Positions 1,746-37,972 of a DNA stretch of 38,256 bases are shown here, piece after piece. Both the position numbers and the translations under genes were made by a program. Location: positions 1-38,256 of IMG/VR virus record IMGVR_UViG_3300025030_000261. One strand, 5' to 3'. A model generated the notes under the pieces. It saw only the letters and a list, made by a program, of their open reading frames with translations, was not told the origin of the DNA and did no database searches. This DNA comes from a virus. Position 1 is the stretch's first letter. Every line of letters starts with the position of its first letter.

Positions 1746-2497
1746 AGTGTCTCACCGCTTGGGATTGTGACAATCACAGTTCGCACCATAGTCCCGGATT
1801 CTTTGAATGCGCCCTCTGGCAGCGCCTCAATACTCCCTCCGCGCTCTGTAATTAGGTCGCGGAATTCGTTTGTTAACCTATTCTCGCGGAATCCGACGCT
1901 GGCGGACATTACTGAAATGAGCTTACCGCCCGGCTTGAGGAATTTCAGCGCATGAACAACGTGCCGAATATCTGCTTGTTTGGCAAATGGCGGATTCATG
2001 CAAACCCGGTCATATTCGGGAAATGGCGAGACTGCGAGAAAATCCGAGTTAATCACTTTTCGGAATTGCCCGGTTTTCTCAAGTTCCCAAAAATTCGCCT
2101 CCATGAGTTCGTAGCAGTCTACCTCTCCGCCAGTAGCCTCAACACAAGCCAAGGCAATCGCTCCGCGCCCCGCGCTTGGCTCAAGGATGGTCATCCCTTC
2201 GTGCAGGCCGGCAAGTTCAATCAGCCGCGCCACAACAGCAGGCGGTGACGGGAAATAGTTGAATTCGTCCTTTGGGATCTCAACCTCTCCGGATAATATG
2301 ATTTCGTCGATCCGGTTGAATGCCTCAGACTCAAACACATGCGCCTTGGCTTTCCGGCTCCACTTCCCGCCAGCCGCTTCCAGTACCTTGTTCGTTCGTT
2401 CGTAAAGATTGCGATCCAACTGCTCGGTAAGTTTCAATTCGAACCCGCTTGTTTCTGCCCGGCTCAACACCGCCAGAACTTCGTCATCAACCATCAT
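1742..2497 (-). CDS. Class I SAM-dependent DNA methyltransferase (N6-adenine type)
   Basis: A 251-residue protein. SAM-binding motif I is LEPSAGRGAIA at 105-115, an acidic motif II region is near YELME (129-133), and the catalytic motif NPPF is at 168-171, preceded by YDRVCM. NPPF is typical of enzymes that methylate adenine N6 (or sometimes cytosine N4). Residues 1-80 form an added N-terminal region seen in phage orphan methyltransferases. No restriction endonuclease is nearby, so protection of phage DNA from host restriction, or marking for replication or packaging, is more likely than a restriction-modification pair. Start ATG 2497 overlaps the stop of the 57-aa gene upstream. Confidence 0.88.
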   Translation of the reverse strand: MMVDDEVLAVLSRAETSGFELKLTEQLDRNLYERTNKVLEAAGGKWSRKAKAHVFESEAFNRIDEIILSGEVEIPKDEFNYFPSPPAVVARLIELAGLHEGMTILEPSAGRGAIALACVEATGGEVDCYELMEANFWELEKTGQFRKVINSDFLAVSPFPEYDRVCMNPPFAKQADIRHVVHALKFLKPGGKLISVMSASVGFRENRLTNEFRDLITERGGSIEALPEGAFKESGTMVRTVIVTIPSGETL

Positions 2498-2667
2498 TTA
2501 CCCACCTCCCCGCTTCTAATCACAAAATACTTTCTGGCCTCGGTATCTGTTTTGCATTGCTCAAGCACCTCGGATCGAATGGTTGGATCGAATTCTTGGA
2601 TTGAATCTAGCCAGTTTTCAACCCGCTTTAGGTCGGCAATCTTTTTCACTCTGTCGAGCGCACTCAT
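2494..2667 (-). CDS. Small hypothetical protein, 57 aa
   Basis: ATG 2667 overlaps the helicase stop and the TGA at 2494 overlaps the methyltransferase start, both ATGA. The GGAGGG sequence directly upstream is a strong ribosome-binding site. The product begins MSALDRVKKIADLKRVENWL, is helical and charged, and has no motif I recognise. The size and position between DnaB-like helicase and methyltransferase could suit a small replication accessory protein, but this is only context. Confidence 0.7.
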   Translation of the reverse strand: MSALDRVKKIADLKRVENWLDSIQEFDPTIRSEVLEQCKTDTEARKYFVIRSGEVGK

Positions 2668-3977
2668 AGACCCCTCCCTCTTTCTTGCTGCGACTCCGGT
2701 TTACACCAGCACTTGTCAAGATTTTTGAACCGCGTCAGACGCCCATCAAATTGGACAAACACCTCACCGTTCGCACCATGCCGATTCGCCCGTATCAATA
2801 TCTCAGCCACACCCTTCATCTTAGAATCCTTATTGTAAATCTCGTCCCGATAAATCATCATCACGAGGTCGGCATCTTGCTCGATAGCCCCAGATTCTCG
2901 TAGGTCGCTCATGTGAGGTCGCTTATCCTGTCTTGATTCACATTCCCGATTGACCTGCGCCAGGCATAGAACTGGGCAGTCTAGCTCTTTTGATAGAGCC
3001 TTCAAGCCACGGCTTATACTAGCAACCTCCTGTTCCCTGTTGCTACCATCACCGCGCATCAGTTGCAGGTAATCCACAACAACCATTTGCAGGCCATGCT
3101 TGCGCATTATCTTTCGTGTGCGGGAGCGTAACTTTCCAATAGTTAGGGCGCATTCATCGTCGATGACTATTTTTAACCCCTTTAGCGTCTGCACGGCTAC
3201 AGTAATCGCATCGGTTGAATTTTCGTCGGTCATAATCGAGTCGGTCGGGTACCCGGAGGTAATCGCAATCATCCGGTTGGCTATTTCCCTGCGCGGCATT
3301 TCGAGACTGGCAAAGTAGATTGTTCCTCCAGCTCGCGCAGCAGTTATCGCCATCGTACAAGCGGCGGCTGTCTTACCGGCCTTCGGCCTTGCAGCCAAGA
3401 TGTTTAAGCTGCCACGATGGAACCCACCACCCAACAACTCGTCAAGGTCGGTTAATCCTGTCGGCATCGCAATAGCCGCCCCAGAATACCGCTGCTCGAC
3501 GTGGATAATAGCCTCTTCAAGCGCCTCGGACAACATTACCGGCTCATGCCCATCACGACTTTCCATTAACGCGAAGATGCGCCTTTCAGCCGTTTCTGCA
3601 ATTTCGGCAGCGTCAGTCTTTTTTTCGACCTGATCGGTAATATCTTGGCTGATTCCACCTAATTCTCGCAGCATGGCATGATTGCGAACAGTGGCGGCGT
3701 AGTGCTTCACGTTTGCCGCGCTTGGCACGTTCTGGGCGAGACTGCCGAGATAGGGTAAGCCTCCGATCCGGTCAAGCTCGCCTGATACCTCTAAAGCCTC
3801 AGCAACAGTGATTACATCCACAGGTTTGCCTTTGTTGCACATCCGGCTAATTACCCGGAAAGCGATACGGTGCGACTCGGCAGCAAAGTCGTTTTCTACC
3901 AAATCAATTTCATCGAAACAATCCGGTTGGATAAGCAGCGCGCCCAATACACTTTGTTCCGATCTAGTTGCTGACAT
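2664..3977 (-). CDS. dnaB: DnaB-like replicative helicase
   Basis: A 437-residue protein of the DnaB family, slightly shorter than bacterial DnaB (about 470). The N-terminal domain runs from EQSVLGALL (7-15) to about 140. The RecA-like C-terminal domain starts near MPTGLTDLDELLGGG, with Walker A ARPKAGKTA (196-204), SLEMPRREI (224-232), Walker B VVVDYLQL (299-306), the sensor AQVNRECE (340-347) and the arginine-finger segment LRESGAIEQDAD (359-370). It should unwind the phage replication fork as a hexamer. The DUF1376 gene just upstream overlaps its start by 14 bases and probably supplies the initiator or loader function. Confidence 0.96.
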   Translation of the reverse strand: MSATRSEQSVLGALLIQPDCFDEIDLVENDFAAESHRIAFRVISRMCNKGKPVDVITVAEALEVSGELDRIGGLPYLGSLAQNVPSAANVKHYAATVRNHAMLRELGGISQDITDQVEKKTDAAEIAETAERRIFALMESRDGHEPVMLSEALEEAIIHVEQRYSGAAIAMPTGLTDLDELLGGGFHRGSLNILAARPKAGKTAAACTMAITAARAGGTIYFASLEMPRREIANRMIAITSGYPTDSIMTDENSTDAITVAVQTLKGLKIVIDDECALTIGKLRSRTRKIMRKHGLQMVVVDYLQLMRGDGSNREQEVASISRGLKALSKELDCPVLCLAQVNRECESRQDKRPHMSDLRESGAIEQDADLVMMIYRDEIYNKDSKMKGVAEILIRANRHGANGEVFVQFDGRLTRFKNLDKCWCKPESQQERGRGL

Positions 3978-9683: not shown

Positions 9684-10043
9684 ATGAAAGAAACAGCATC
9701 CGCCAAAGCCTCATTCCTTGCTTCCATACTCAAGGCCGGAGAGCACTACGCACGGATTACGCAATGGCGTCTTTCAGAGCAGAAGAGGCGTGCGCGTGCC
9801 CGAATGGCTGGTGGAATTCTATCTAGGGACATCCTTACTAGACTCTATCGGCTCCAACGTGGGAAATGTGCCTGTTGTGGACTTCCGCTTGGGAGTAGAT
9901 ATGAGCTTGACCACATCTCCCCGCTGGCAAAAGGAGGCCAGCATTCCGATAACAACATGCAATTACTCAGGAAGAGGTGCAATCAAGAGAAGTCAGCGAA
10001 ACATCCGGTTGACTTCATGCGGTCAAGAGGGTTTCTGCTATGA
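9684..10043 (+). CDS. HNH endonuclease
   Basis: A 119-residue protein with a basic N-terminal helix (WRLSEQKRRARARMAG), a zinc pair CACCG and the HNH core ELDHISPLAKGG, then NNMQLLRKRCNQEKSAKHP. This is the compact HNH_5/HNH-type nuclease common in phages, either a homing enzyme or a host DNA nuclease. Spacing from the DUF1566 gene is 27 bases, with AGGAG 9 bases before the ATG. The second zinc half appears as a lone Cys (RCNQEK) instead of CxxC, so zinc binding may be incomplete. Confidence 0.85.
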   Translation: MKETASAKASFLASILKAGEHYARITQWRLSEQKRRARARMAGGILSRDILTRLYRLQRGKCACCGLPLGSRYELDHISPLAKGGQHSDNNMQLLRKRCNQEKSAKHPVDFMRSRGFLL

Positions 10044-10108
10044 GCGCCATGCCAAGCATAAATGCGCGCAGGAATTGAACAACGTATTTTTGAAGAAGAG
10101 GAAGAGTG

Positions 10109-10627
10109 ATGTCAGTCAACAAAGTGATTCTGATAGGCCGCCTGGGCAAAGACCCGGAAACGCGCTATTGGAATAAGGTGGCGAAAAGCACACCCACCCA
10201 ATGCTGGGAGTGGCTTGGAGCAAAAAAGCCAGCCGGTTACGGAAACGTGCGGATTGCTGGCGTATATAAAAACGCGCACCGCATCGCATGGGAATTTACC
10301 TATGGCGATATTCCCAAAGGGATGCACGTTTTACATTCTTGCGACAACCCAAGCTGCTGCAATCCGCACCACCTGATGCTCGGAACATCGGTATCAAACA
10401 GAATTGACATGGTGCGCAAGGGACGCGGTAATTATCGCCATGCCAATAGAGCGCGCGGACTGAATAATTCAAATGGCAAACTAAACGATGACCAGGTGGC
10501 GCAGATTCGTGCCGCCTATATTCCCGGAAAAGTGAAGCAATCTGAGCTTGCGGCTCAATATGGAGTTAGCCAGCGCCTTGTAAGTTTAATCGTTCGCGGA
10601 GAGGCAAGAAATCATGGCATCGCTTAA
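10109..10627 (+). CDS. SSB N-terminal remnant fused in frame to an HNH homing endonuclease
   Basis: The first 20 residues, MSVNKVILIGRLGKDPETRY, are the N-terminus of a single-stranded DNA-binding protein. From residue 21 the protein becomes a homing endonuclease: WNKVAKS, CWEWLGAKKPAGYGNV, then HRIAWEFTYGDIPKGMHVLH, CDNPSCCNPHHLMLGT and a C-terminal helix-turn-helix segment (KQSELAAQYGVSQRLVSLI). A complete SSB gene follows and overlaps its end (10614). The fusion point equals the same alignment position in the intact SSB (ETRY). ATG 10109 has GAGG upstream. Insertion of a mobile endonuclease into ssb followed by repair or replacement of the gene is the simplest reading. Confidence 0.85.
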   Translation: MSVNKVILIGRLGKDPETRYWNKVAKSTPTQCWEWLGAKKPAGYGNVRIAGVYKNAHRIAWEFTYGDIPKGMHVLHSCDNPSCCNPHHLMLGTSVSNRIDMVRKGRGNYRHANRARGLNNSNGKLNDDQVAQIRAAYIPGKVKQSELAAQYGVSQRLVSLIVRGEARNHGIA

Positions 10628-11105
10628 TCAGTGTAATTTCATCGGTAATGTTGGCAAGATCGAAACCAGGTATATGACCAGCGGAGAGGCGGTAACCAAT
10701 ATCTCACTGGCCTGCAATGAAACATGGAAGGATAAGTCCGGTGAGAAACAAGAGCGCTGCGAGTGGGTGAGCTGCGTCATGTACCGCAGGCTGGCTGAGA
10801 TTGCCGCCGAATATGTGAAGGTTGGACAGCAGCTTTTTATTTCAGGAAAGATGGCAACCCGCAAATGGCAGACCAAGGAAGGCCAGGATCGCTACACCAC
10901 CGAGATCGTGGTCAACGAAATGACCATGCTGGGCGGAAAGTCTCAGGGTGGCGAGCATTCTGCACCGGCAGAGCGCGATTCAAATCCAGCGGGAAGGCCG
11001 GGCGGTTCGCCATCTAAACCTGCGCCAGATAGTCAATCAAACACAGTGGCATCGACAACAAAGACTGGTGCATTCGACAACTTTGATGATGATATTCCTT
11101 TTTGA
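10614..11105 (+). CDS. ssb: Single-stranded DNA-binding protein
   Basis: A 163-residue SSB. The OB-fold runs from MASLNQCNFIGNVGKIETRY through GEAVTNISLACNE, W residues at CEWVSCVMYRRLAEI, YVKVGQQLFISGKMATRKWQ to EMTMLGGK (about 107). A disordered Ser/Pro linker ends in the acidic tip DDDIPF, the part that recruits partner proteins in bacterial SSBs. It protects single strands and should cooperate with the RecT-like protein and exonuclease of the same operon. ATG 10614 lies inside the end of the endonuclease gene; AGAGG just upstream serves as its ribosome-binding site. Confidence 0.95.
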   Translation: MASLNQCNFIGNVGKIETRYMTSGEAVTNISLACNETWKDKSGEKQERCEWVSCVMYRRLAEIAAEYVKVGQQLFISGKMATRKWQTKEGQDRYTTEIVVNEMTMLGGKSQGGEHSAPAERDSNPAGRPGGSPSKPAPDSQSNTVASTTKTGAFDNFDDDIPF

Positions 11106-13246: not shown

Positions 13247-13365
13247 GGCCGCCCCACGAAAACACTAAACACCGCCACGATCGCGGCAACGATGCATATA
13301 AAGGCTATGGCGAGTGATCCCCAGCCTAATTCATCATCCAGTTCGTATTCGTTCTCGTCGTTCAT
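13243..13365 (-). CDS. Small single-pass membrane peptide, 40 aa (lysis cassette)
   Basis: From ATG 13365 to TGA 13243, overlapping the stop of the homing endonuclease upstream and the holin start downstream (both ATGA). An acidic N-terminus (MNDEYELDDELGW-type, residues 1-15) precedes one strongly hydrophobic segment, SLAIAFICIVAAIVAVFSVF, and a short basic end. Size, topology and place before the holin suggest a holin partner or antiholin, though no family match can be shown. Confidence 0.65.
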   Translation of the reverse strand: MNDENEYELDDELGWGSLAIAFICIVAAIVAVFSVFVGRP

Positions 13366-13910
13366 ATTTTAATCCTATCGGGAATTGATTTCTGTCCTTC
13401 GAGCGATAGATGCGCCCAGCATTTCCGTGAAACAATATTATAAAATTGAGATTTTCCTATCCCCATATTTTTGGCAACTTTTATCATATCCTTCACCATA
13501 CCCTCTTTTTGGCCATATATTTCTCTAAGATGCAAAACGTCCTTCTCGGTAATTTTATGGAACCTACTATCCTCTCCATGCAAAACAAAATTACGCTTCT
13601 TTTTTGCCATATCTCTACAGTTGTCTCGTTGTGTCCCAATAAATAAATGCTCTGGGTTTACACAGATAGGATGGTCGCATTTGTGACACACGATTTTTCC
13701 TTCTGGGATTTCACCTACAAACAACTCCCATGCGGCTCTATGCGCCAATATATTTCCTCTTGATTTTGAAATCATAAAGCATCCATATCTATGCTGCACG
13801 CCTTTATCAGTACCAAATTTTCCACCAATCCAATTCCAACAACCGTCTGTTTTTTCTACTTTAGCAAGAAATCTATCAATAGCCGGAATACAATCGCCTT
13901 TTTTTGGCAT
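13362..13910 (-). CDS. HNH homing endonuclease in the lysis cassette
   Basis: A 182-residue protein of the HNH_3 kind: FLAKVEKTDGCWNWIGG, RYGCFMISKSRGNILAHRAAW, ELFVGEIPEGKIVCHKCDHP, CVNPEHLFIGTQRDN and a C-terminal helix-turn-helix (ITEKDVLHLREIYG; IGKSQFYNIVSRKCW). It shares architecture with the endonuclease fused to the ssb remnant at 10109. AT-rich compared with its neighbours. ATG 13910 has AGGAG at the right distance, so the upstream in-frame ATG 13940 is not chosen. It separates the endolysin from the holin genes, and its end is knitted by ATGA to the small membrane peptide. Confidence 0.88.
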   Translation of the reverse strand: MPKKGDCIPAIDRFLAKVEKTDGCWNWIGGKFGTDKGVQHRYGCFMISKSRGNILAHRAAWELFVGEIPEGKIVCHKCDHPICVNPEHLFIGTQRDNCRDMAKKKRNFVLHGEDSRFHKITEKDVLHLREIYGQKEGMVKDMIKVAKNMGIGKSQFYNIVSRKCWAHLSLEGQKSIPDRIKI

Positions 13911-13954
13911 TTCATCACTCCTAATATAAAGAGTGTCCATTGTACCACATTATC

Positions 13955-17418: not shown

Positions 17419-18042
17419 TTATCTCCTTTTTCTCATCAATGGTGTCATCAATGATTTCTCAAATGACCAACCATAAACATAATACCTTTGACGAAACGTA
17501 CTTGGTTTCACGCACGCATCATCCATACATTCAGCTATTGTCTTTCTCTCACCATTGAAATCAACAATCCTATTGGTTGATCGATTGTTCGCCTGCGTCT
17601 TTTTTGATGCCCATCTGCAATTGCCAAGTTCATAATTACCATCATTGTCTATTCTGTCCAATGTATAGCCACTCGGCGCATCACCCATGTCGGCATAAAA
17701 TCGGGCAAAACTTTGCCATTCTTTGCACACAGATATACCTCTTCCAGAATACCTGTGCATGTCTGGCCTTGTTTCGCATTTACATCTTGCCATCATGCCT
17801 GCCCATATCATATATTCCCTTGAACTGTGCATTCCATGCTTCGTATTCGCTTTGGCCGTTACTTCTTTTTGAAAGCATCCGCATGATGTTGTGTGTCCTC
17901 TGCGTAGATTTGTGCCAAAAGCAACAATCGTATTTCCGCAATCACACAGACATATCCATTTAAGAATTTTCGATTCATTCTGATCCTGCGAGACAACGGC
18001 CAATCTGCCAAATTTGCGCCCAATCATGGGAATTTTTTTCAT
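17419..18042 (-). CDS. Homing endonuclease (zinc-ribbon plus HNH type) between J and tail fibre genes
   Basis: About 207 residues. The N-terminal zinc ribbon has GRKFGRLAVVS, WICLCDCGN and TSCGC. The nuclease core reads YMIWAGMMARC, YSGRGISVCKEWQSF, YADMGDAPSGYTLDRIDNDG and NCRWASKKTQANNRS, the hallmark of phage HNH nucleases that share a domain with AP2-type homing proteins. The C-terminus (KPSTFRQRYYVYGWSFEKSL) is a DNA-binding repeat. AT-rich against flanking tail genes. ATG 18042 or 18054 may be the start; neither has a clear ribosome site. Its stop lies two bases from the fibre start codon. Confidence 0.88.
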   Translation of the reverse strand: MKKIPMIGRKFGRLAVVSQDQNESKILKWICLCDCGNTIVAFGTNLRRGHTTSCGCFQKEVTAKANTKHGMHSSREYMIWAGMMARCKCETRPDMHRYSGRGISVCKEWQSFARFYADMGDAPSGYTLDRIDNDGNYELGNCRWASKKTQANNRSTNRIVDFNGERKTIAECMDDACVKPSTFRQRYYVYGWSFEKSLMTPLMRKRR

Positions 18043-18101
18043 GATCAATATCATGTAACGTAAAAGATATTGTAATCATATCATAATTCATATTGCCGCC
18101 A

Positions 18102-32951: not shown

Positions 32952-33587
32952 TTATCCTTTCAAAATGTTGAGGTTTTTGGTGAGGGCTGCGATTTGCGCC
33001 AAGGCATCGCCAGCATCAGCGCCGGTGGATTTCTTGATGCGTGCAATGAGGGTTTTCGCCTCGTTGCGTGAAAAACCGCCAGCCTCGCGCAGGTAGTCTT
33101 CAATTTCGGAGAGGGACGTAAGCCCCTCGATATTCTTCACGCCCTGGATGCGGGCGGCATCATTTGAAGGGAAGGTGACGAGCGACACCTCCCAGAGATC
33201 AACTTTTTTCAGCGTGCGAATTCCGGTCACTCGGTCGAACGAGTCTTCGCGAGTCTGGAATCCAATTGACAGGCCGCTGATGGCTTTCATTTTCAACAGT
33301 TCGTAGGCTTCGGCTCCGCGTGCTGTTTTCATCGCCAGCTGGCCGGAGACCTTCAGTCCGATATTGTCTTCGGCCATTGATGTGTAAACGCCAATTGGCT
33401 CGCCGCTGCGATGTTGCCACAGAAGGGCTGGCATCTTCCCGGAGGAGAGTGAATCAGTGAATGCGCCAGGGGCCACGATCTCATCGTACGAATCGAGCAC
33501 ACCGAACACGCTGCCATAGCCATCAAAACTTCCTGTTTCGGAAATTTCTTTCAGCTCAAAACCGAAATCTCGAGTTTTAGTTGTCAT
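32952..33587 (-). CDS. HK97-family prohead protease (U35)
   Basis: A 211-residue serine protease. GYGSVFGVLDSYDEIVAPGA (23-42) is followed by LLWQHRSGEPIGV with catalytic His59, GLKVSGQLAM and KAISGLSIGF with catalytic Ser107, then DLWEVSLVTFPSN (about 130-142). The C-terminal 60 residues (LSEIEDYLREAGGFSRNEAK) are a self-processing tail. It cleaves the scaffold region of the capsid protein during maturation. Overlaps the portal gene end by 11 bases. Confidence 0.95.
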   Translation of the reverse strand: MTTKTRDFGFELKEISETGSFDGYGSVFGVLDSYDEIVAPGAFTDSLSSGKMPALLWQHRSGEPIGVYTSMAEDNIGLKVSGQLAMKTARGAEAYELLKMKAISGLSIGFQTREDSFDRVTGIRTLKKVDLWEVSLVTFPSNDAARIQGVKNIEGLTSLSEIEDYLREAGGFSRNEAKTLIARIKKSTGADAGDALAQIAALTKNLNILKG

Positions 33588-34812
33588 TTGGTTTACCTCC
33601 TGCGGGTGCCGGTAAACCGGCGATATTGGCGGGGATGCGCAGCTTGTCGCTGGCTGGGTCGGGGTCGGGGTTTAGATCAAGCACCGCGCGTCCTTCGTTT
33701 GCGGTAGTAATTCCGCCATTCACGTCGTCACGGACAAGCTGGTGAGTCTCCACCGCTGAGCCTCTAAGCATGGCAGCATCTACAAAGCAGGAATACAGGC
33801 CTTCTTTGCGGTCGGCATCCGTCAGCAGATTCGCGTCAATCGACTGCTCTAAACGTCGATATGTCGGAGCCAAACCATGAACCAGATGCGCCAAAAACAT
33901 TTGAGCCGCACTGGCGTAGGTAGTGTTTTTGCTTTCCGCAAAAATAAGTATTGGGTTGACCTGGAAGTGCCGGCAGATTTCCTCAACCTGGAATTTTCGC
34001 GTTTCCAGTGTCTGAGCGTCGATGCCGGTCATGCTGGTGTTCAACCATTTTGCCGAGCGGTCGAGAATCATCGCTTTGCCGGTATTTTCAGTTCCCCCAA
34101 TTTCGTCATCAATCCATTTGCGCAGCGCAGCATATTGATCGTCCTTGAGAGTCCCCTCAACAGAATACACGCCGGACGCTTTTACGCCGTTCCGCTGCAT
34201 TCTCGATTGCTGCTCTTCTGTTGTCATTGCCAAACCGATGGTCTCGCGGGCAAGGTGCACCGATTCCAAGCCATACCAACTGTTCCACGACGGACCTCTG
34301 ACGTGCCAAATTGATTTGGCTGGGAATGTTTGCGTCTTTCCGCTTTCGCCCCTGACCTCGTAGGTCAACGAAAAGTCGTCCGCGCGCTTGACTGTGACGC
34401 TGCCTGGCACGAATGGGATGAGTTCCAGGATGCCGGCTCGGTTCGATCGGTTGATGAATGAATAGTGCTGGCCGCACAAATCAAGATGCAATGACAGCGT
34501 TTCGATGTATTCAAAGGCTGTTTGCCAGTCGTTCGCGCGGGTTTTGAGGATGAAATAGAGCGGATGATCCTTGGCTGGAAGCCGTGACCTGCCATCGGCG
34601 CTCTCGCGCATGATCTTCAACGGGACTTGCGCCAGGCCATTCGCACGGACTCGAAGGCACGCCATGACTGCGGCGACTTCAATCGCGGACTGGATATTGA
34701 CCGACTTACCGCTCTTGGTGACTCGCCCTGCATATCCGGCAATTTGCCGGAGAATATCGTAGCTCGTTCCCTTTTCGGACCGGCCTGAATCAAGACGAGA
34801 GAGGATGCCCAT
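33577..34812 (-). CDS. HK97-family portal protein
   Basis: A 411-residue portal. Conserved parts: IEVAAVMACLRVRANGLAQV, PLKIMRESADG, HPLYFILKTRANDWQTAFEY, LDLCGQHYSFINRSNRAGIL, FPAKSIWHVRGPSWNSWYGL, then EEICRHFQVNPILIFAESKN and TYASAAQMFLAHLVHGLAPT. It forms the dodecameric vertex through which DNA is packaged and ejected. It opens at ATG 34812, adjacent to a small membrane-type protein. Confidence 0.96.
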   Translation of the reverse strand: MGILSRLDSGRSEKGTSYDILRQIAGYAGRVTKSGKSVNIQSAIEVAAVMACLRVRANGLAQVPLKIMRESADGRSRLPAKDHPLYFILKTRANDWQTAFEYIETLSLHLDLCGQHYSFINRSNRAGILELIPFVPGSVTVKRADDFSLTYEVRGESGKTQTFPAKSIWHVRGPSWNSWYGLESVHLARETIGLAMTTEEQQSRMQRNGVKASGVYSVEGTLKDDQYAALRKWIDDEIGGTENTGKAMILDRSAKWLNTSMTGIDAQTLETRKFQVEEICRHFQVNPILIFAESKNTTYASAAQMFLAHLVHGLAPTYRRLEQSIDANLLTDADRKEGLYSCFVDAAMLRGSAVETHQLVRDDVNGGITTANEGRAVLDLNPDPDPASDKLRIPANIAGLPAPAGGKPNDN

Positions 34813-35022
34813 TTATCTGCGCAGACCAACGGCACAGAATACAACTCCGCCCACAATCCATGAGGCTGGCGGATAGATCAGCGCCACGCCGTAGCATATT
34901 GCCGCGAGGCCGCTGAAGAAAAAAAGGTCCCGCGTATCCAAGATGCGCGAGACCAAAGCCACCAAGCGCGCAGGAGCGCGCATGATTGTGGCGGGGGAGA
35001 CTATGTCTGGTATAAATTTCAC
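34813..35022 (-). CDS. Small membrane protein between accessory cassette and portal, 69 aa
   Basis: Starts at GTG 35022 behind GAGG and ends at TAA directly before the portal ATG. It has a basic N-terminal half (APARLVALVSRILDTRDLFF) and two hydrophobic stretches (FFFSGLAAICYGVALIY; SWIVGGVVFCAVGL). It is the first gene behind the promoter at 35057-35085. Small membrane proteins at this place are seen in other phages, without known role. Confidence 0.65.
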   Translation of the reverse strand: MKFIPDIVSPATIMRAPARLVALVSRILDTRDLFFFSGLAAICYGVALIYPPASWIVGGVVFCAVGLRR

Positions 35023-35056
35023 TGCGGCGTCCTCGCGACGTTGACAGATAGATGGG

Positions 35057-35085
35057 AGTATCAGTTAAATTTTAATGTGTGTCAA
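35057..35085 (-). promoter_or_regulatory. Leftward promoter upstream of the portal block
   Basis: On the minus strand TTGACA (35085-35080), a 17-base AT-rich spacer and GATACT (35062-35057). The -35 is consensus. Transcription would start near 35050 and read the small membrane protein, portal, protease and capsid genes. A TTGACA on the plus strand (35041-35046) makes the region an inverted repeat with the leftward -35. Confidence 0.72.
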
Positions 35086-35096
35086 GAATTTACATT

Positions 35097-35207
35097 GCCT
35101 GCCTTGCCTTTCCCAGCCAGGCCTCGCCCCACCAAGCCGCGCCTGCCTTGCCAAGCCCGTCCGCGCCTTGCCAGGCCTCGCCGTGCCTGCCTCACCTACC
35201 TCGCCAC
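35097..35207. repeat. Degenerate CCTTGCC / CCAGGCC repeat tract
   Basis: About 110 bases made of imperfect repeats of GCCTTGCC (three good copies) and CCAGGCCTCGCC (two copies) with strong strand bias: pyrimidine-rich on plus, G-rich on minus. It lies between the HTH gene stop and the leftward promoter. The plus-strand frame through it is Pro/Arg-rich and not credible as a gene. It may mark the edge of the inserted cassette or form a G-rich transcript end. Confidence 0.55.
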
Positions 35208-35210
35208 CTA

Positions 35211-35387
35211 CTACTTCGCATCCAGCCCGTTTATCATTTTGAACAATTTAACCGCACCGGGCGGAATCTTGCTCTGCCCGGATTCCCACCGGCAATACGT
35301 CCGCGCAGAGCATTCAAGTTGCCGCGCCATATCGGATATTGATAAGCCGAGGCGTTTGCGTTCGGCTTTCAGCTCGATGTTGGTCAT
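35211..35387 (-). CDS. Short XRE-family helix-turn-helix regulator, 58 aa
   Basis: ATG 35387 overlaps the stop of the ParB-like gene (ATGA). The whole product is one helix-turn-helix unit: IELKAERKRLGLSISDMARQ, then LECSARTYCRWESGQSKIPP and a closing helix GAVKLFKMINGL. The recognition helix should be around SARTYCRWE. It is co-transcribed with the ParB-like gene behind a promoter that holds a perfect inverted repeat, so autoregulation of this cassette is likely. Confidence 0.82.
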   Translation of the reverse strand: MTNIELKAERKRLGLSISDMARQLECSARTYCRWESGQSKIPPGAVKLFKMINGLDAK

Positions 35388-36184
35388 AACGTGTACGGAT
35401 CAGTCGTTTTGCTTCCGTCAAGAACCTTTAAGAATTTAACTTTTTTCCCTTTCAAGAAATAATCGAAAGCCCGAAAAGCTAGTTTTACATGATATTCTCG
35501 ATCTGCTTTTTTATTTACCGACGCAAAATCAGACATAATACGCTCCCTCAGCAAATATGCTGGGTTATCGTTGCTTAATTCCGCGCCACTTTCGAGTGCA
35601 TTCATAAACTCGAACGCCTTTTCCCTGTTCTTTTCAGCAAAAACCGTAAGCAAAAACCCGCCCCATGAGATATTCAGGTATTTTTTTACCCACACCATAC
35701 CGCAAACATGAGAAACGCATTCTGCAATCAACGGTTTTTCTTCTACGAGGTTAAGGATTTGCGTAGCAGATGGACTGTTTGTAGAGACGAAAGGGGTGCT
35801 GTTTTGTTTGAGCAAAAAATACAATCTTGCGCTTGCTGCAACTCCATTGTAATTTTTTATACCATGAAGACCCAATACCTGCCCAGATGTGCGAGCAAGT
35901 TTGTCAACGTCGATGGTTTTGAATACTTCGCTTTCAAGTCCACGAACAACCACCACCTTGAGCGCAATGTTTGATTTTACAACTGCCAAAAGCCTGTGCT
36001 GCCCGTCTAGGATTACATTGTCTTTCGATATTCTTATGGCGTCTCCGTTAAATAAAAACTCACCTCTTTGCATCGCTTCAGATAAAAATCTGACATGTGA
36101 AGGTCTTACAGGCCGATTATTAGTGTTTTGCTTTAAAAGCTCAGCTGCATACGCGGGCGTTATCTCTGCGATCTCTATATTCAT
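35384..36184 (-). CDS. ParB/sulfiredoxin-like (DGQHRL) protein, accessory gene
   Basis: A 266-residue protein from ATG 36184 behind AAGGAT. Residues 1-110 resemble the ParB N-terminal fold of phage proteins: NNRPVRPSHVRFLSEAMQRG, FLFNGDAIRISKDNVILDGQ then HRLLAVVKS, and VVVVRGLESEVFKTIDVDKL. The DGQHR motif is the usual nucleotide or catalytic loop. The C-terminal half is helical (YNGVAASARLYFLLKQNS; AFRAFDYFLKGKKVKFLKV). Noticeably AT-richer than the flanking terminase and portal genes. With the HTH gene it forms an extra cassette splitting TerL from the portal. Confidence 0.8.
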   Translation of the reverse strand: MNIEIAEITPAYAAELLKQNTNNRPVRPSHVRFLSEAMQRGEFLFNGDAIRISKDNVILDGQHRLLAVVKSNIALKVVVVRGLESEVFKTIDVDKLARTSGQVLGLHGIKNYNGVAASARLYFLLKQNSTPFVSTNSPSATQILNLVEEKPLIAECVSHVCGMVWVKKYLNISWGGFLLTVFAEKNREKAFEFMNALESGAELSNDNPAYLLRERIMSDFASVNKKADREYHVKLAFRAFDYFLKGKKVKFLKVLDGSKTTDPYTL

Positions 36185-36234
36185 AATATGTATCCTTCTT
36201 GAATAGACATAGCCCGATGCCATGTCCTGAGAGA

Positions 36235-36263
36235 ATACTATGCCCTATTGGCATAGGGTGCAA
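36235..36263 (-). promoter_or_regulatory. Cassette promoter with operator in the spacer
   Basis: On the minus strand TTGCAC (36263-36258), a 17-base spacer and TAGTAT (36240-36235). The perfect inverted repeat CTATGCC-CTATT-GGCATAG (36238-36256) fills the spacer and touches the -10, an arrangement that would let a dimeric regulator shut the promoter. A second inverted repeat, GACAT-N11-ATGTC (36206-36226), lies at the expected start of the transcript. Confidence 0.72.
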
Positions 36264-36271
36264 GTGTTATT

Positions 36272-37972
36272 TCATTTGGTATCCCAGAAAGATTTCCCGC
36301 CCCCGTCCGGGTTGAGGCTCATCAGCGAAACGGCATTGAATGCCGCCATAAGCGGGTCGATCTTTGCGAACCCGCTTGCCTGCTTGGTGATAAGAATCGA
36401 GTTCCCGCGTGGCTCGACTTTGGCGTTGCCAACCACCCATGCCATCATCGGCGAGCCGGAGTGTATCAGCGCGCCCTCGGCCAGCTTGCGTTCAAGCGTT
36501 TTGATGCTGCCACCCAGCCGCCAGCCCTGCGACACGCCTACAATCTTTTCCTGCGGAACATCTTCCGCGATCAGCGCATCCAGCACCGACCCTATACCGG
36601 CCGGGTCGCATCCAACTTTATCCAGCAGTCCGGATGCCTCAATCTCGGCCACGATCTGCGCGACCTCAACAACATCGTTTCCAATCGTCTCGACCAGCAC
36701 CAGGTCGCCGTCCTTGGCGAAGTCCTTGAACCGTGCGGCCTCAGACTTCCGGCGCTCCAGCACTGACGGATGCGCCCATGCCCTACCCCACAACAGCCAC
36801 TCGCGGGTTATGCGGTCGCGCCCGATCACTACCAGCCCCAGCAGGTCATCAAGGCCGCCGCCGTCAATCCCTACATCCACCACGTCGCAGCGTGTCAGAA
36901 TTGCGTCCAGGGTGATGCCCTCGCGGCCTTGTGCCTCCCAGAAATCCGCGCCAGCCCATCGGTCGGAGCGGAGGGCGAGGCCGATCTCCAGATTTAAGTG
37001 CTTCGATGCGAATCCGATCAGTGAATTTTCACTTTCTTGCTCAGCCTTCTCAAATTCATTTACAAGATGTTCTTCATCAACGGATGCCCCAAGATTTGGG
37101 TTTGTGATGTAAAAATTCTTCGGGTTTCTGTACTCCTTTGAATCGATCATCGCTTTGGGGAATTCAAAAATCACAGGCATGAACTTATTATCAATAATTT
37201 CCCCGTCGCGCACCTTGCGCGCATATTGAAGCCGCTGTCTGAAAACGCCAGCGGGGGCTGCGTCGGCCATCGTTGATGCCGTGATTATAAATCCCTCTGG
37301 GCGCGACATCATGCCGCCGAATGCCTCTCTCAGCATATTCTCGGCGTTGGCCTTTTTGCCAAATTGCCAAGTCTCATCCAAAAAAACGCCGATGGCCTTC
37401 TTCCCGCCGACGGTCTCATTTTCTGCGGCCACCACTTTCAGCGTTGCGCCAGTCACTCTATGAGTCAGGGTCTTAATATGCTCCTGGACCAATATCAACT
37501 CCCGTAATTCTTCGTCCGCGTTCACCATATCTCGCGCAGGATCGAACGAGTTTTTTGCAATTTCATGCGTCGGGGCAAGTATCAAAAATTCGCCAGATTT
37601 ACGCCAATTCCGCAGCAGCGCGGTAAGCATTACGGCGGCAGCGACTGTCGATTTTCCATTTTTCTTTGAAATTAACAGGAAAAATTCACGGATCAGGCGC
37701 CGTCCCGCTGTCGGGCTGCCCGTGTCCACCATGTTTTCGTCATAGCCCGAGTCGTAGGAACCGAATACCGATGCAGCAAAATCCCTCATCCATGGCCGAC
37801 ACACGTCGCCCATGCGTGGCGAACCGATCGCATCTACCATGCGCAACTCGTCAAACACCTGTAGCGCATCGCGTGCCTCATGCGGGAATAGTGGCGGATG
37901 AATTAGAGACTCGCCTGCGATGATGCGTCTTTCCCAGTCAGGCATTGCAGTCGTCCATTCAGGAGGATTCAT
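36272..37972 (-). CDS. terL: Terminase large subunit
   Basis: A 566-residue Terminase_1 family protein. The ATPase domain has REFFLLISKKNGKSTVAAAV (Walker A about 100-110), LILAPTHEIAKNSFDPARDM, and Walker B AIGVFLDETWQFGKKANAEN with Asp199/Glu200. The nuclease domain follows LALRSDRWAGADFW with VVDVGIDGGGLDDLLGLVVI and later GCDPAGIGSVLDALIAEDVP. It pumps and cuts DNA during packaging. The start ATG directly follows the small terminase stop. The cassette promoter lies just after its end. Confidence 0.96.
   Translation of the reverse strand: MNPPEWTTAMPDWERRIIAGESLIHPPLFPHEARDALQVFDELRMVDAIGSPRMGDVCRPWMRDFAASVFGSYDSGYDENMVDTGSPTAGRRLIREFFLLISKKNGKSTVAAAVMLTALLRNWRKSGEFLILAPTHEIAKNSFDPARDMVNADEELRELILVQEHIKTLTHRVTGATLKVVAAENETVGGKKAIGVFLDETWQFGKKANAENMLREAFGGMMSRPEGFIITASTMADAAPAGVFRQRLQYARKVRDGEIIDNKFMPVIFEFPKAMIDSKEYRNPKNFYITNPNLGASVDEEHLVNEFEKAEQESENSLIGFASKHLNLEIGLALRSDRWAGADFWEAQGREGITLDAILTRCDVVDVGIDGGGLDDLLGLVVIGRDRITREWLLWGRAWAHPSVLERRKSEAARFKDFAKDGDLVLVETIGNDVVEVAQIVAEIEASGLLDKVGCDPAGIGSVLDALIAEDVPQEKIVGVSQGWRLGGSIKTLERKLAEGALIHSGSPMMAWVVGNAKVEPRGNSILITKQASGFAKIDPLMAAFNAVSLMSLNPDGGGKSFWDTK

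Follow-up and report, generated by a model that had tools for sequence, protein, structure and literature searches.

The window analysed here, which is the whole 38,256-base IMG/VR virus record IMGVR_UViG_3300025030_000261, carries an insertion between the genes for the terminase large subunit (terL) and the portal. As read from the sequence, this insertion combines a short Aca2-like HTH gene, a putative operator and two GGY/NN repeat arrays with a ParB-like gene that stands where vipr and its partner would be. We hold with high confidence that it is a mobile autoregulated accessory cassette, that is, a moron. The fuller reading that we prefer, and consider probable, is that of a mobile, negatively autoregulated cassette for conflict between genetic elements, formed as a chimera of a ParB-like and a VIPR cassette.

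VIPR (Viral Interference Programmable Repeat) is a phage-borne, RNA-guided system that was reported in 2026 (PMC13142463, preprint). Its vrRNAs have an alternating GGY/NN code, the NN dinucleotides of which guide the Vipr (RAMP) protein to DNA that is matched by skipping one base, and the targets are mostly competing phages or satellites (PMC13142463).

Table 1. Features of the terL–portal region and of the same junction in relatives. Positions refer to the window unless a locus is named.
Feature	Position	Strand	Basis or remark
Portal, right flank	33577-34812	-	Pfam Phage_portal E 4e-75
69-aa membrane protein (phrog_502), backbone, conserved beside portal, outside cassette	34813-35022	-	68-69% identity in L031, L036
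Backbone promoter TTGACA-17-GATACT, right limit of insertion	35057-35085	-	upstream of membrane protein gene
GGY/NN array 2 (vrRNA-like), 8/9 GGY	35101-35143	-	NN = GC.TT.GG.GA.CT.TG.AA.AA
GGY/NN array 1 (vrRNA-like), 8/9 GGY	35145-35187	-	NN = AC.GA.CT.AA.GC.CG.TT.AA
58-aa Cro/CI-type HTH, short Aca2-like	35211-35387	-	PDB matches to Aca2; homologue alignment A6
ParB/sulfiredoxin-fold DGQHR protein, 266 aa (phrog_5931)	35384-36184	-	phrog_5931 E 1.6e-59
IR2, imperfect inverted repeat GACATGGCATCGGGCTATGTC	36206-36226		corresponds to CCGTGGCATnGGGCCGTGG elsewhere
Cassette promoter: -35-like TTGCAC 36263-36258, 17-nt spacer, -10-like TAGTAT 36240-36235	36235-36263	-	sequence
IR1, putative operator in promoter spacer	36238-36256		CTATGCC-AATAG-GGCATAG, perfect 7-bp arms
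terL (terminase large subunit), left flank of insertion	36272-37972	-	Pfam TerL_nuclease/TerL_ATPase, phrog_9
RtcB tRNA ligase at terL/membrane-protein junction	L005 2293-3483		possible repair of anticodon-nuclease damage
HTH_17 genes at terL/membrane-protein junction	L009 7258-7656; L013 3403-3579; L027 3806-4336		

On the minus strand the genes follow the order terS, terL, cassette region, membrane protein gene, portal, protease and capsid genes. In the nearest relatives found, L031 (terL 83%, portal 83% identical) and L036 (terL 71%, portal 81%), the gap between terL and portal is only ca 264 bp (263–264) and holds just a gene homologous to that of the membrane protein and a TTGACA promoter, whereas the window has ca 1.2 kb of extra DNA there (35087–36271). 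From this comparison, the extra DNA is an insertion that lies between the stop of terL and the position-conserved promoter of the membrane-protein and portal genes, whose counterpart in both relatives is a TTGACA-16-TAAAAT just after terL. The insert is AT-richer, with a GC content of ca 0.46 compared to ca 0.55, and no HTH_3-type gene is present in these two empty-site relatives. An earlier note on this DNA had described an AT-richer interval of ca 1.4 kb (34813–36271) at a place where terL and portal would normally adjoin. The compositional difference is confirmed; however, the part at 34813–35022 is backbone, because the gap in L031 and L036 encodes its homologue, so that in this lineage the two genes do not adjoin even in the empty state. 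The second promoter that the note assigned to the cassette likewise belongs to the backbone. The junction comparison thus shows that the cassette genes are not invariant parts of the packaging module.

Other relatives hold different cargo in the gap between terL and the membrane protein gene, namely an RtcB RNA ligase or HTH_17 genes (Table 1); this spot is an insertion site. Another terL–portal junction insertion was seen in an unrelated phage (L430 2384–3180), where an AlpA-like gene and the HTH gene lie on the strand opposite to the flanking terminase- and portal-like ORFs, which were identified by reading the ORFs. Elsewhere in the window, an ORF at 10106–10627 has an SSB-like start (MMSVNKVILIGRLGKDPETRYW) that runs straight into HNH-type sequence, and behind it lies another SSB gene, which looks complete (10614–11105); the region 10106–11105 looks like the insertion of an HNH endonuclease in ssb. 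Further HNH-like ORFs are scattered at 9684–10043, 13362–13940 and 17419–18054.

The HTH gene lies directly downstream of the ParB-like gene in one operon, the two overlapping by an ATGA at 35384–35387, just as the earlier note had it. The best PDB matches of the encoded protein are all Aca2 structures (7ezy, E 5.5e-5; 8w35, 7vjo and 7b5j), and its R29 corresponds to R30 of Aca2, which is essential for autoregulation and promoter function (PMC8434428). With the Pfam family Aca2_YdiL, the full length of which is ca 115 aa, the protein scores 21.1 bits and thus stays below the cut-off of 23.8, while a homologue in L289 that is 50% identical to it passes at 32 bits. It consists of a single domain and lacks the C-terminal dimerisation domain of Aca2, as do most small Aca proteins of 60–65 aa (PMC9410906). 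A similarity to MqsA/HigA-like proteins was also seen, and PADLOC gave nothing but weak HTH-type matches.

Two further Aca2-like genes came up outside the cassette family. In the Gordonia plasmid pGOR1 (L420 1992–3082), such a gene directly precedes an annotated type I-E Cas5 gene. In the P2-like Pseudomonas phage Sirocco (L296 2308–2884), a 62-aa ORF and an Aca2-like HTH gene are inverted within the baseplate/tail module, and this pair is a probable moron of the acr-aca type.

Taken alone, the promoter of the cassette is weak, with 7 of the 12 consensus bases, and it is missed by a simple promoter scan. When the 87-bp gap is shuffled 5000 times, a 7-bp repeat like IR1 appears in 135 cases, which makes it only mildly unusual on its own, and its significance derives instead from its conservation in other loci. 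The perfect 7-base repeat of the earlier note is present, between the -35-like and the -10-like element. In most loci with a related HTH gene, the DNA upstream of the cargo shows a TTGACA, then CTATGCCAnnnTGGCATAG filling the spacer to the -10, and then CCGTGGCATnGGGCCGTGG. In L289, L431 and L438 the half-sites are changed but still symmetrical (GGACCAATGGTCC, TGACCATTGGTCA); this kept symmetry fits a site to which a dimer binds. From 14 of these loci, with the window excluded, a promoter/operator profile was built and searched against 3.87 Mb; it matches the window at 36261–36208 with E 6.6e-6, and all matches with E <0.1 fall in contigs of the HTH cassettes. It is important to point out that the loci were recruited by HTH similarity, and that the conservation of the operator may therefore partly reflect common descent.

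The core promoter contains an inverted repeat that is conserved between loci, which is the feature tested for an Aca operon, and the layout of the promoter is the same as in acrIF8-aca2 of Pectobacterium phage ZF40 (PMC9410906) and in the related promoter of Pasteurella phage CFP3. The ZF40 operon also shares with the window the order of cargo and HTH gene, the placing of IR1 in the promoter spacer and of IR2 downstream of it, and a homologous HTH with the essential arginine. The differences are that the window HTH has 58 aa and no dimerisation domain, that the operator sequence is another one, and that the cargo is unrelated to AcrIF8. Comparison between loci thus strongly supports a regulation of the cassette by the HTH protein and its operator, and the protein would act as a repressor of its own operon.

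A scan with four HTH sequences yielded 17 loci with homologues that are 47–61% identical (alignment A6). According to tblastn and ORF reading, they lie on phage contigs, in either orientation, and often beside capsid, portal or terminase genes. The cargo that precedes the HTH gene differs between loci; in most of them it is phrog_4652 together with phrog_15946 or phrog_5926, while DUF7666 is found in L422 and an AlpA-like gene in L430. The phrog_4652 profile matches PDB entry 36pp, 'SUSP1 Vipr protein', with E 7.9e-20, and it also matches proteins of Felix-O1-like phages, where arrays stand beside the homologue in REP10. By these profile matches, the phrog_4652 cargo is Vipr and, since arrays adjoin it, the HTH cassettes that contain it are VIPR loci under an Aca2-like repressor. 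The HTH gene itself is not present in the VIPR stretch of the Felix-O1-like REP10; of the two, only the window has the Aca2-like HTH and the operator.

VIPR loci with Vipr, GGY/NN arrays and a short Aca2-like HTH gene were seen in L423, L424, L425, L426, L428, L431 and L432, and further ones in L433, L435, L436, L437, L438 and L289, most of them with the conserved double-palindrome promoter. In the text of the VIPR preprint that was consulted (PMC13142463), such a regulator is not named. The DUF7666 gene of L422 (phrog_4433; 2096–3004) stands under the same HTH and operator and is another candidate conflict gene. The same contig gave a weak phrog_4652 match (E 4.6e-5, 17 bits), which is probably spurious.

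In one of the other loci, L429, the gene directly before the HTH gene encodes another ParB-like protein of phrog_5931 (E 6.2e-20), and the operator is present too, so the pairing found in the window is not unique. This pair has no arrays, and the arrays and the ParB-like protein may therefore be functionally unrelated. In L424, L426 and L432, arrays lie downstream of the HTH gene. The claim of a self-contained accessory system is well borne out, in that the relatives lack the cassette and the HTH gene with its operator recurs in unrelated phages before different cargo. Phage morons generally offer a parallel, being accessory genes of late modules that have their own transcription, may face either way and are absent from close relatives; what differs is that the cassette of the window belongs to a recurrent family with one regulator and one operator.

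We now turn to the arrays, which the earlier note had correctly perceived as a repeat tract at the far edge without recognising the two GGY/NN units. Both are 43 nt long, in sense orientation and 3' of the HTH gene, with a GGY every five bases and nine repeats each, one GGY position being mutated in each of them, and a shared GGCAAGGCAGGC motif closes both. They are thus tandem GGY/NN pentanucleotides within the 9–16 repeats that define VIPR arrays. There are two such arrays here and none elsewhere in the window, none in 50 shuffles, and none in the control loci with terL, portal or ParB genes (ca 2.5 Mb, both strands). The threshold of the detector was set after the tract had been seen; the controls and the positive control behave as expected, the detector recovering the VIPR arrays of REP10, which score no better than those of the window. 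Of 18 cassette HTH genes, 11 have a dense tract nearby, compared to 0 of 275 control genes (p ca 1e-15), and no such tract is present at 160 other phrog_5931 loci. The tract pattern alone retrieved 120 loci; Vipr is found in 61 of the 80 with arrays and in 2 of the 40 without (p ca 1e-14). That the GGC tract might be a generic phage repeat was considered, because the loci selected by it rarely have the HTH gene, and was overturned by this association with Vipr. It is very likely that the arrays of the window are of the VIPR type.

As in VIPR, the arrays are phage-borne, tandem and on the sense strand, and proteins of the Vipr family are encoded in sister cassettes that share the HTH and operator; the window differs in having a ParB/Srx-fold protein in place of a detectable Vipr. 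With two profiles (A8 and phrog_4652), no Vipr was found in the 38 kb of the record, which is possibly incomplete, and the guides of the window would thus need an outside partner. For both guides, no target with 0–1 mismatches was found in the phage fragments searched, and under skips of 0–3 nt the 2-mismatch matches in these fragments are at chance level only. The look for a structured 3' tail of the array RNAs gave a fold z of -1.8, and a literature search for the repeat string of the window returned nothing relevant. Whether the arrays still function in the window phage is close to an even call, with the balance slightly against it. In the window, L423, L432 and L437, the GGY/NN units often end in GGC-A-GGY, a one-base spacer with a shift of register that may mark the boundary of a unit or a site of processing.

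The ParB-fold protein with a DGQHRL motif that the earlier note had proposed is upheld by structure prediction. The AlphaFold2 model (pLDDT 92) has an N-terminal domain of NTP-binding type (residues 1–97) and a helical C-terminal domain (98–266). The former is matched best by ParB (7bnr, with Z 7.0 and an rmsd of 2.6 across 86 residues), followed by PadC, KorB, Noc and sulfiredoxins, and the GxxR P motif (DGQHR; GQHR) is invariant across 58 sequences. According to the model, the protein has the ParB/Srx fold with this motif, and it probably binds an NTP. The C-terminal domain modelled alone (pLDDT 93) gave no convincing fold match and no HTH match in structure searches. Orphan proteins of the ParB-CTPase fold, which mobile elements often carry, bind CTP, ATP or GTP (PMC12704722). 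The window protein resembles them in its fold, in the GxxR phosphate motif, and in being on a mobile element and not beside parA; it differs in that a helical C-domain with no clear match replaces the parS-binding HTH domain.

A single-protein scan of viral contigs returned no relatives of the protein and an alignment was required; the alignment-guided scans gave 80 viral and 80 genomic loci. The phrog_5931 relatives are in 92 phage and 20 plasmid records. Most of the genes examined lie in early regions beside cro-like, replication or recombination genes and have no cassette HTH, so the general role of the family may be regulatory rather than anti-defence. In at least two other phages, though, the gene is alone and inverted within the packaging module: in L152 between terL and portal, and in Vibrio phage 1.131.O between the portal and a head-morphogenesis gene. 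Among the 25 families listed for 95 downstream neighbours there was no HTH_3 or Aca2 family, and ORF searches from the ParB side found no Aca2-like gene adjoining; the recurrent pairing surfaced only when searching from the HTH side. To our knowledge, no member of the family is a known Acr. On balance, we lean slightly towards a conflict function for the window protein.

Expression followed by self-repression is the established mechanism of Aca proteins. On entry of the phage, the promoter of the cassette would be free and the operon would be expressed in a burst, after which the HTH protein would bind IR1 and IR2 as a dimer and shut its own operon down. The payload would be twofold: the ParB/sulfiredoxin-fold, probably NTP-binding protein, and the two co-oriented GGY/NN arrays of the VIPR guide-RNA kind, which are presumably transcribed. 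Both would probably act against other phages or host defence, and the note's suggestion of anti-defence or superinfection control fits. The HTH protein is related to anti-CRISPR-associated repressors, and the connection with VIPR suggests conflict between phages. In the chimera, a ParB-like–HTH cassette like that of L429 may have been fused with the HTH–array end of a VIPR cassette like those of L424, L426 and L432, the simplest history being a recombination of the two kinds at the HTH gene. The arrays may still be active as guides in trans, may serve as decoys or may be relics.

A competing explanation, which we consider quite possible but less than probable, is that of a VIPR relic, in which the ParB-like gene has replaced vipr and the accessory gene, the arrays are functionless leftovers, and only the ParB-like/HTH pair matters. 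The absence of a detected Vipr in 38 kb, the array-free pair of L429, the lack of guide targets in the phage fragments searched and the mutated GGY in each array are in line with this; however, 8 of 9 repeats are intact in arrays that keep the sense orientation and a common end motif, and those of REP10 score no better.

It is unlikely, though conceivable, that the cassette is a plain acr-aca operon, with the ParB-like protein as an anti-CRISPR or other anti-defence protein, the HTH protein as its Aca and the arrays as incidental. The Aca2 homology, the promoter layout of ZF40, the moron position and the association of one regulator family with several types of cargo all fit, but only 3% of Aca2-like genes have a known acr upstream (PMC9410906), members of the ParB-like family occur widely in other settings, and parts of VIPR are present in most of the sister cassettes. 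Rather doubtful, too, is a functional VIPR variant that has dispensed with Vipr, in which the guides program or decoy the Vipr of another element in trans, or the ParB/Srx protein is a new effector, under the control of an anti-CRISPR-type repressor common to complete VIPR loci.

A type II toxin–antitoxin system of a ParB-like toxin and an HTH antitoxin, close to the toxin–regulator pair of the earlier note, finds little support and is very improbable: the MqsA/HigA-like similarity and the two-gene order suit it, but the same HTH family stands behind unrelated cargo including Vipr proteins, and the ParB-like family often occurs alone, with no antitoxin. DNA partition or phage-plasmid maintenance would account for a ParB-type fold adjoining a centromere-like repeat; no ParA is seen among the ORFs of the window, however, and the tract goes with Vipr and the HTH gene rather than with other phrog_5931 loci, which makes it a far-fetched option, while the structure searches with the C-domain, which gave no HTH match, exclude nothing. 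An ordinary part of the packaging module, suggested by the strand shared with terL and portal, is refuted by the empty sites in the closest relatives; the different composition and the conserved operator of its own also speak against it.

In the chimeric reading that we prefer, the cassette ties the Aca2-like repressors of anti-CRISPR operons to the guide arrays of VIPR, which were reported only in 2026. The shared operator is a simple handle for finding more cassettes of this regulon, the cargo of which (the ParB-like phrog_5931 protein, DUF7666 and Vipr) consists of candidate genes for inter-phage conflict or anti-defence. Arrays that stand without Vipr raise the question of whether phages carry guide RNAs that act in trans, or decoys, against competing VIPR systems. 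If the decoy reading is true, the guide RNAs of the window would be comparable to RNA anti-CRISPRs, disarming the VIPR system of a competitor.
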